Source: Thioalkalivibrio sp. ALJ16 (GTDB taxonomy: Bacteria; Pseudomonadota; Gammaproteobacteria; Ectothiorhodospirales; Ectothiorhodospiraceae). From it: a stretch of DNA of 64,000 bases. This document shows, piece after piece, positions 47,215-49,216 of the stretch. A program made the translations under genes and the position numbers. The notes under the pieces were generated by a model. It made no database searches and was not told the DNA's origin. It saw only the letters and a list, made by a program, of their open reading frames with translations. The stretch lies in the NCBI RefSeq assembly GCF_000377345.1, contig NZ_KB898042.1, forward strand, positions 62,001 through 126,000, written 5' to 3'. Position 1 is the stretch's first letter. Every line of letters begins with the position of its first letter.

Positions 47215-47282
47215 TTGTAGGAGGCCAGCCCTCTGGCCGATCGGATGTTGGACAGGCCCATCGGCCAGAGGGCTGGCCTCCT
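47215..47282. repeat. class B REP palindrome (full) after ugd
   Basis: GGAGGCCAGCCCTCTGGCCG and its reverse complement CGGCCAGAGGGCTGGCCTCC enclose a 17-20-base loop, a near-perfect stem of over 20 bp. It may double as the ugd terminator. Related units occur at 48497 and 49213. Its right arm ends at the proposed left boundary of the IS110 element. Confidence 0.85.
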
Positions 47283-47319
47283 TGTGTGTCGTCGCAGACG
47301 GTTCGCTACCATCTGTGGC

Positions 47320-47466
47320 ACTGGGCTCGGGGCAACCCGTTGGCCTCCTGAGGCTTTGAGCCTGATTGGTAGATCGGTCCCCGAGCCCGTTTTCATCTCG
47401 AAGTTTGCACGGTATCCAAGCCCCCCTCCGTGACGGACGGGTGAGGCTGTACGGACAAGGCGAGAG
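47320..47466 (+). ncRNA. candidate IS110 bridge RNA in the transposase leader
   Basis: GGGCTCGGGG (47323-47332) pairs perfectly with CCCCGAGCCC (47379-47388), enclosing a loop that contains TGGCCTCCT (47341-47349), identical to the DNA just left of the element (47274-47282). A second arm, TCTCG (47396-47400) with CGAGA (47461-47465), encloses CACGGTATC (47408-47416), identical to the element's right end (48472-48480), plus a small CCCTCC/GGACGGG hairpin. The order target loop then donor loop, upstream of the transposase, is that of known IS110 bridge RNAs. The right-hand guides could not be recognised by eye. Confidence 0.5.
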
Positions 47467-47472
47467 GACGAG

Positions 47473-48456
47473 ATGGCTCATATTGGCATTGATGTCAGCA
47501 AGAACAAGCTCGACTGCATGTGGGTGCGGGACCTGGAGGCGGGCAAGGTCAAGCCCAAGGTGTTCCCGAACCGCCGGGACCAGTACCCGGAACTACTCCA
47601 CTGGCTCGAGCGCAACACGGGTGAGTCGCCCGAGGCACTACATGTGTACTTGGAGGCCACCGGCATCTATCACGAACCCCTGGCGTACTGGCTGCATGAG
47701 CAGGGCGTGCGGGTCTATGTACTGAACCCGGCCCAAGTGCGCTTCCACGCCCAAGGCATGGGGGTGCGCAACAAGACGGATCGCAAGGACAGCATGATGC
47801 TGGCGCGTTACGGCATCGAACGCGCGCCCGCACCGTGGCAGCCGGAACCCCCGGAGGTGCGGGAACTCAAGCGTCTTCTGGGGCGGCTGGAGGCGCTGGA
47901 GCAGGACATCCGGCGCGAGGAGAACCGGCTGGAGAAGGCGCAGTTCAGTGAGGATGCGCTGGCCCAGGAGTCCATCGGCAACGTGCTGGAGGCCCTGCGC
48001 GAGGAACACCGGCGTCTCCAGCAGCAGATCGACGACCACTTCGACGTTCATGACCACCTGAAGCGGGATCGGGCCCTGCTGGAGAGCATCCCCGGGATCG
48101 GCCGGGTGTTATCGGCCTCGATGACCGCGACGTTGCGCAGCCGGGCGTTCAAGAGTGCCCGTCAGGCGGCGGCGTTCCATGGACTGGTGCCGGTCCAGCA
48201 GGAATCGGGCATCTCGGTCCAGCGGCGACCGCGGCTGGCGAAGGCCGGCTCCAGCCGCCTGCGACGCAAGCTCTATATGGCGGCGGTCACGGCCGCGCAC
48301 CACAATGCCGACGTTCGGGCGCAGTACCAGCGGCTGTTGCGGCGCGGCAAGGCGAAGATGGCGGCAATCGGCGCCGCGATGCGCAAGCTATTGCACATCG
48401 CCTTCGGTGTGCTGAAGTCGCAGCAGCCGTACCAGCCTCGCTGCAGCACCGGTTGA
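47473..48456 (+). CDS. IS110-family transposase (DEDD N-terminal, serine C-terminal)
   Basis: A 327-residue bridge-RNA-type recombinase. The RuvC-like DEDD domain shows GIDVSKNKLDC, YLEATGIYHEPLAYWL and NKTDRKDSMMLARYG; a coiled-coil spacer (LEALEQDIRREENRLEKAQF) leads to the Transposase_20 domain with SIPGIGRVLSASMTA, HGLVPVQQESG and KAGSSRLRRKLYMAA, which holds the catalytic serine. The frame is intact, so the element may be active. It stands alone between ugd and vapBC. Confidence 0.93.
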   Translation: MAHIGIDVSKNKLDCMWVRDLEAGKVKPKVFPNRRDQYPELLHWLERNTGESPEALHVYLEATGIYHEPLAYWLHEQGVRVYVLNPAQVRFHAQGMGVRNKTDRKDSMMLARYGIERAPAPWQPEPPEVRELKRLLGRLEALEQDIRREENRLEKAQFSEDALAQESIGNVLEALREEHRRLQQQIDDHFDVHDHLKRDRALLESIPGIGRVLSASMTATLRSRAFKSARQAAAFHGLVPVQQESGISVQRRPRLAKAGSSRLRRKLYMAAVTAAHHNADVRAQYQRLLRRGKAKMAAIGAAMRKLLHIAFGVLKSQQPYQPRCSTG

Positions 48457-48496
48457 ACCCAGTGACCGAGACACGGTATCTACACGGGGCGATTGC

Positions 48497-48632: not shown

Positions 48633-48839
48633 ATGGAAGCCCTCACCATCTCTCCTAAATATCAGGTCGTCATCCCCAAGGCGGTACGCGAGGCGCTGCA
48701 TCTTCGTGCCGGCCAGAAGGTCCAGATTGTGGCGTACGACGACCGTATCGAGCTGATTCCCGAACGGCGCATGAGCGAGATGCGGGGGTTTCTCAAGGGC
48801 ATTAACCCCGACATCCCGCGCGACGGAGACCGCGTGTGA
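48633..48839 (+). CDS. vapB: AbrB/MazE-fold antitoxin (VapB type)
   Basis: A 68-residue swapped-hairpin DNA-binding protein: MEALTISPKYQVVIPKAVRE is the classical SpoVT/AbrB start, followed by LHLRAGQKVQIVAYDDRIEL. The C-terminal tail (RRMSEMRGFLKGINPDIPRD) would wrap the toxin. It overlaps vapC by four bases. Two palindromes upstream are candidate operators. Confidence 0.9.
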   Translation: MEALTISPKYQVVIPKAVREALHLRAGQKVQIVAYDDRIELIPERRMSEMRGFLKGINPDIPRDGDRV

Positions 48840-49216
48840 ACGTGGTCGATTCGTCCGCGTGGCTGGAATACTTTGCCGACGGCCCGAACGCCGATGTGTT
48901 TGCAGACGCAATCGAAACCACGGCAGAACTGATCGTGCCCACGCTCAGCCTCTATGAAGTCTTCAAACGGGTGCTCCAACAACGAGGCGAGGCAGCGGCC
49001 CTGCAGGCGGCCGCACTGATGCAGCAGGGCGAACTCGTCGAACTCACGGGGCCTCTGGCCCTGTCCGCTGCCCGTCTCGGCGCCCAACATGGCCTCCCGC
49101 TCGCCGACAGCATCATCTACGCCACCGCGCGCGCCCATCAGGCCGACCTCTGGACCCAGGACGCGGATTTCGACGGGCTTCCAGCTGTTCACTACATCCC
49201 GAAGCCTTCCCCGTAG
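48836..49216 (+). CDS. vapC: PIN-domain ribonuclease toxin (VapC type)
   Basis: A 126-residue PIN-domain protein from a GTG start. The acidic catalytic residues are visible: D in NVVDSSAWLEYF, E in PTLSLYEVFKR, D in GLPLADSIIYATA and D in LWTQDADFDGL. VapC toxins cleave specific tRNA or rRNA. The stop codon TAG lies inside the first four bases of the adjacent class B REP (GTAGGAGG), so the REP supplies the end of the gene. Confidence 0.93.
   Translation: MNVVDSSAWLEYFADGPNADVFADAIETTAELIVPTLSLYEVFKRVLQQRGEAAALQAAALMQQGELVELTGPLALSAARLGAQHGLPLADSIIYATARAHQADLWTQDADFDGLPAVHYIPKPSP

Follow-up and report, generated by a model that had tools for sequence, protein, structure and literature searches.

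A nine-base word, CACGGTATC, occurs in the leader of a recombinase gene of Thioalkalivibrio sp. ALJ16 and again just downstream of the gene, which raises the question of whether it is a guide of a bridge RNA, a boundary of a mobile element or a coincidence. The two copies, at 47408-47416 and 48472-48480, are the only ones on either strand of the window (the whole 64,000-nucleotide stretch of DNA analysed here, in whose coordinates all positions are given), and the shorter 8-mer ACGGTATC is found four times (26706, 47409, 48473 and 49744). The original prediction correctly placed the first copy in a leader arm between TCTCG (47397-47401) and CGAGA (47461-47465), which pair in the predicted fold, and the second at the right end of a proposed element, and interpreted the word as a left donor guide. 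It also held that two independent nine-base matches strengthen the bridge RNA model. This was borne out through relatives, although the words themselves are not strong proof: 282 of 19,574 random 24-mers from the window (∼1%) share at least 9 nt with the 190-nt leader, as do 165 of 20,000 shuffles of the right end. The nine-base match taken alone is therefore modest evidence, and it is the relatives that make it strong.

The gene encodes a recombinase of the IS621 type

The 327-residue product matches Pfam families PF01548 (4.5e-23) and PF02371 (1.6e-22), and both an N-terminal DEDD RuvC domain and a C-terminal Tnp domain with a catalytic serine are present. Residues D7, E61, D103, D106 and S245 align with D11, E60, D102, D105 and S241, the catalytic residues of IS621 (PMC11208158). 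Among proteins of solved structure, only IS621 (8wt6, E 1.1e-55) and ISCro4 (9t56, E 5.7e-54) were found at E values up to 0.001; the similarity to IS621 is only distant, and the likeness to ISCro4 is one of related recombinases. The gene is preceded by a long structured left end of 190 nt and followed by a short right end of 25 nt. Directly downstream of the element lies a pair of genes for a MazE-like antitoxin and a PIN-domain protein (48633-49216). Elsewhere in the same genome there are two partial recombinase matches, L049 (G000:C22) and G000:C2:342379-342795 (35% identity, residues 173-314), which are possibly remnants of another IS110 element.

Copies and empty sites define the ends of the element

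The genome holds one full copy of the element, and same-genus genomes hold 12 more. Similarity among these 13 Thioalkalivibrio copies starts at CCTTGTGT and ends after ACGGTATCTAC, while the flanks differ; comparison of ends in other copies, a check suggested with the original prediction, thus yielded identical ends throughout. A scan of GTDB species gave 23 element loci, 15 of which were added (from Halomonas, Vreelandella, Alcanivorax, a Gammaproteobacteria MAG, an Ectothiorhodospiraceae MAG and a degraded T. versutus copy), the other eight being three copies already taken and five fragments. The added loci share their ends with the Thioalkalivibrio copies, and the resulting close-copy set comprises 28 full or nearly full copies. 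In the Halomonas copy L080, which is apparently nested within another copy, the coding match is longer (1,251 bp) and the left flank contains Ns. L121, known through its 8-mer only, is the same place as L046. No similar DNA was found in the E. coli collection.

Empty sites were sought by comparing the joined flanks of three insertions with 30 same-genus genomes each. Genome G025 provided an empty site for insertion L053a (244/244 bases without a gap, 95%) and G021 one for L053b (233 bases without a gap, 90%). For the insertion in the window, G025 reads GGCTGGCCTCCTACACGG across the junction on the mazE-like side, and the ugd side is covered by other genomes and diverged; orthologous empty sites of this insertion are diverged (76-83%) and repeat-rich. 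The same-genus empty sites close exactly on one CT. Since the left flank and the right end have only this CT in common, this dinucleotide is the core, and the element spans 47283-48481, as originally predicted to the base (Table 1). Copy alignment and empty sites agree that insertion is scarless at the dinucleotide core, with no target duplication beyond CT, and these ends fit the cut directly after CT described for IS621 (PMC11208158). In an alternative reading, the CACGGTATC pair marks the element boundaries, as the original prediction itself had considered, or is a transposition direct repeat, and the DNA left of 47408 belongs to the host. This would explain why identical 9-mers flank the recombinase gene, but it is rejected as vanishingly improbable because copies at unrelated sites remain homologous from 47408 leftward to about 47280 (∼125 bp further upstream, to CCTTGTGT, in 13/13 Thioalkalivibrio copies) and because the empty sites close at CT 47281-47282/48480-48481.

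Table 1. Features of the element and its insertion site, in window coordinates
Feature	Position	Strand	Basis
REP-like palindrome; its right arm, ending TGGCCTCCT, forms the left half of the target	47219-47282	.	Sequence; unoccupied copies elsewhere in own genome
CT core, left copy	47281-47282	.	Sole ambiguity between empty and occupied sites
IS110-group (IS621-like) insertion sequence, 1,199 bp with one CT core	47283-48481	+	Ends common to 13 Thioalkalivibrio copies; same-genus empty sites
Left end, 190 nt, with predicted bridge RNA (5′ stem-loop, target-binding loop, donor-binding loop)	47283-47472	+	Fold and covariation
Left target guide TGGCCTCCT, identical to target 47274-47282	47341-47349	+	18 distinct pairs
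Right target guide GTAG, complementary to CTAC 48480-48483	47369-47372	+	Copies; sequence changes with target in L080, L128, L133
Left donor guide ACGGTATC (CACGGTATC minus first C)	47409-47416	+	Copies and wider relatives
Right donor guide ACAAG, complementary to CTTGT 47281-47285	47455-47459	+	Copy comparison; ATAAG/CTTAT in L119 (by eye)
DEDD/Ser bridge recombinase, 327 aa	47473-48456	+	Pfam PF01548 and PF02371; IS621 8wt6 E 1.1e-55; catalytic residues
Putative -35 TTGAAC of promoter formed only in circle; -10 TATCTT is 48477-48481 joined to 47283	48453-48458	+	Inferred
Subterminal inverted repeat arm GACAC; other arm is GTGTC 47286-47290, with 10 bp between them in circle	48470-48474	.	Sequence comparison
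Left donor, right-end copy of ACGGTATC	48473-48480	+	Sequence and copy alignment
CT core, right copy; target goes on as AC at 48482	48480-48481	.	Copy alignment and empty sites

The shared word is an eight-base donor guide

In 26 of the 28 close copies, an 8-nt word is common to the leader and the right end, including L079, which has ATGGTATC at both places. The match is broken in L081, whose leader reads ACGATATC, and in the decayed L083, whose leader reads ACGGGATC. The ninth base, the first C, matches in the window copy only; in its sister L051, the leader base is A and the right-end base C. Therefore, the guide is 8 nt rather than 9, and the original prediction was right about its identity as a donor guide but one base too generous about its length. 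The donor word barely varies in the close copies, where covariation rests mainly on L079.

We examined wider relatives, comprising 33 elements that are mostly 28-51% identical to the window protein; three of four G281 loci were left out as the same element, and 32 elements were usable (L141 is without a leader). A longest-common-word test split own from swapped pairs only partly, so a position-restricted test was used instead. In 15 of the 32 elements, the N7C(T) word of the right end recurs in the 150 nt preceding the gene of that same element, with seven different words represented, whereas 44 of 992 swapped pairs match beyond a shared donor word (90/992 with any match). Where the word differs in these more distant elements, it does so in the leader and at the right end alike. 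The strict pattern gave no cognate donor word in 17/32 elements, no donor guides were identified for L113-L117, and L118 (G044) yielded no assignable ends. This copying of an element's own word, across seven words, is the strongest support for the donor-guide finding. It also makes it highly unlikely that an IS110 element merely contains the nine-base match by chance and that the word is not a guide, even though that reading draws on the ∼1% background of random 24-mers and on a ninth base private to the window copy.

The donor-binding loop matches both the right and the left element ends, the right donor guide being only 5 nt and nearly invariant. In the description that defined bridge RNAs, target guides occupy the first loop and donor guides the second, and every pairing takes in bases of the core (PMC11208160). 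The order of guides claimed in the original prediction holds.

Target guides follow the REP sequences that are invaded

The left target guide was compared with the left flank in 26 of 28 copies, leaving out L060 and L061, which lack this flank at a contig edge. The 18 distinct pairs agree at 131 of 162 positions, a total that none of 20,000 shuffles reached (mean 76.3, maximum 107). The farthest (ninth) base matches at chance level, and the match is poor in L075 (3/9) and L083 (5/9). On the right, GTAG faces CTAC in all close copies except L080, which has CTCCTC in both right guide and target, and the decayed L083. Past GTAG, the right guide matches weakly, at 13/26 and 12/26 for the next two bases versus 9.7 and 7.7 expected. 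By eye, two further elements, L128 (G291) and L133 (G233), have a right guide without GTAG; their leaders read GGGTCAG and their right flanks CTGACCCC, which indicates that the right guide also follows the target.

Three Thioalkalivibrio subgroups have the guides GGCCTCCT, CGCATCCT and CAGGCTCCT, and each is found in a different REP type with these ends. Similarly, the leaders of Alcanivorax copies L078 and L082 differ at 4/182 positions, two of them in the guide, and the targets differ to match. IS110 elements that target REP sequences have long been described (PMC1525189), as have GTAG-tagged REPs in Thioalkalivibrio (PMC3733652); near-identical elements with guides retargeted between REP families are modestly unusual. 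In the genome carrying the window, TGGCCTCCTAC occurs eight times (0 in the reversed control), once at 47217-47227 as the intact other arm of the invaded REP, and so free target sites remain. In a second IS110 lineage of the same genus (L113 and L116, in G011 and G004), the CT used appears by eye to be the first one in the same REP end (GGGCTGGC-CT-CCTAC), not the second, and the right guide is longer, with GTAGGAG opposite CTCCTAC.

The left end is predicted to encode a structured RNA

The leader of the window copy (47288-47472) folds with a z-score of -2.98, and 0/200 shuffles were as stable. Single-sequence folds of 19 distinct leaders show, by eye, a 5′ stem-loop and then two further arms, several of the folds being weak by z-score (e.g. 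-0.3 in L083 and -0.6 in L053_6007). In the same 19 leaders, the stem of the target loop is paired in 96.4% of cells, and 10 of its 14 pairs have changed on both sides. Its covariation score of 0.505 was reached by 0/500 shuffles, with slid versions scoring at most 0.170. RNAalifold did not recover the 5′ stem-loop from the whole leader alignment because the alignment shifts there. An Rfam search found no bridge-RNA family; sub-threshold miRNA and sRNA matches lay on the REP palindrome and were treated as chance.

A junction promoter in the circle has been described for IS621 (PMC11208160). The junction predicted here would carry TTGAAC and TATCTT 18 nt apart, and in most relatives the -35 matches at 3/6 positions. 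Subterminal inverted repeats flank this junction; they are 5 bp in the window copy and 4-8 bp across the 28 copies, with variants such as GCAAGAC/GTCTTGC, GAGAGAC/GTCTCTC and GGAGAGAT/ATCTCTCC. An element's own arms match at 6.5/8 positions on average and swapped arms at 5.3, so the arm match is partly simple conservation.

A bridge RNA model and its relation to known systems

Together, the region 47283-48481 is almost certainly an IS110-group insertion sequence of the IS621 type. The ends, core, empty sites, guide/target and guide/donor correspondence, RNA stem covariation and catalytic residues are observed at this locus and in its relatives. By analogy with IS621, the excised element would form a circle joining its right and left ends as ...CACGGTATCT-TGTGTGTCG..., and the promoter created at this junction would transcribe the left end as bridge RNA. 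In the presumed RNA-protein complex, the first loop would pair with the REP end through its left guide TGGCCTCCT and its right guide GTAG, which faces CTAC; the second loop would pair with the joined ends of the element itself through the left donor guide ACGGTATC and the right donor guide ACAAG. The recombinase would then cleave the two DNAs after their CT core, strands would be exchanged by it, and the circle would enter the REP with no target duplication except CT.

Present activity is likewise expected by analogy with IS621. It is somewhat doubtful, but a reading of real weight, that the bridge RNA pairs as described while the window copy is an immobile fossil, which is compatible with the same anatomy. 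As there is a single full copy in the genome, there is no direct sign of recent movement; against this, the reading frame is open, the catalytic residues are present, guides and ends are intact and close relatives are multi-copy in genome G029.

The IS621-type element proposed here resembles IS621 of E. coli in its domains, catalytic residues, CT core, left-end two-loop bridge RNA and REP target, and differs in targeting other REP families. The IS621 donor word ends in TATCT, as does the donor here. By their description, the IS110-family elements ISPpu9, ISPpu10 and ISPa11 also insert into REP sequences (PMC1525189). Subterminal repeats of 5-8 bp are modestly unusual for the IS110 group, where absent or 2-3 bp repeats are reported as a descriptive trend, not a strict rule (PMC11208160). 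The IS1111 group and seekRNA elements share the DEDD recombinase family and a guide RNA; IS1111 usually has 11-13 bp repeats with extensions of 7 and 3 bp, the rest having absent or short imperfect repeats (PMC11187229). The arms here lie 10 bp apart in the predicted circle, the sum of those extensions (PMC11187229). Unlike in IS1111, where the RNA lies downstream of the gene, the RNA region here is upstream, the right end is 25 nt and the repeats are 5 bp (at most 8 in relatives). A literature search by title found no publication on this particular element.

More tentatively, and as a possibility only, the lineage may keep its right guide on CTAC (the GTAG-type REP tag) and change mainly its left guide, such that near-identical sisters colonise different REP families. 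Stepwise retargeting would then be a natural process that can be seen inside one genome, as with L078 and L082 of Alcanivorax. Its 5-8 bp repeats with 10-bp spacing may make the lineage an intermediate between the end designs of IS110 and IS1111. In itself, the element is an ordinary, very well supported representative of a class discovered only recently. With it, Thioalkalivibrio contributes a natural bridge-RNA system with clear boundaries, for which ends, empty sites and several guide/target variants are known. The sister copies with different guides provide a natural record of target change in such elements, and the changed right target guides of L080, L128 and L133 are further natural guide sets.
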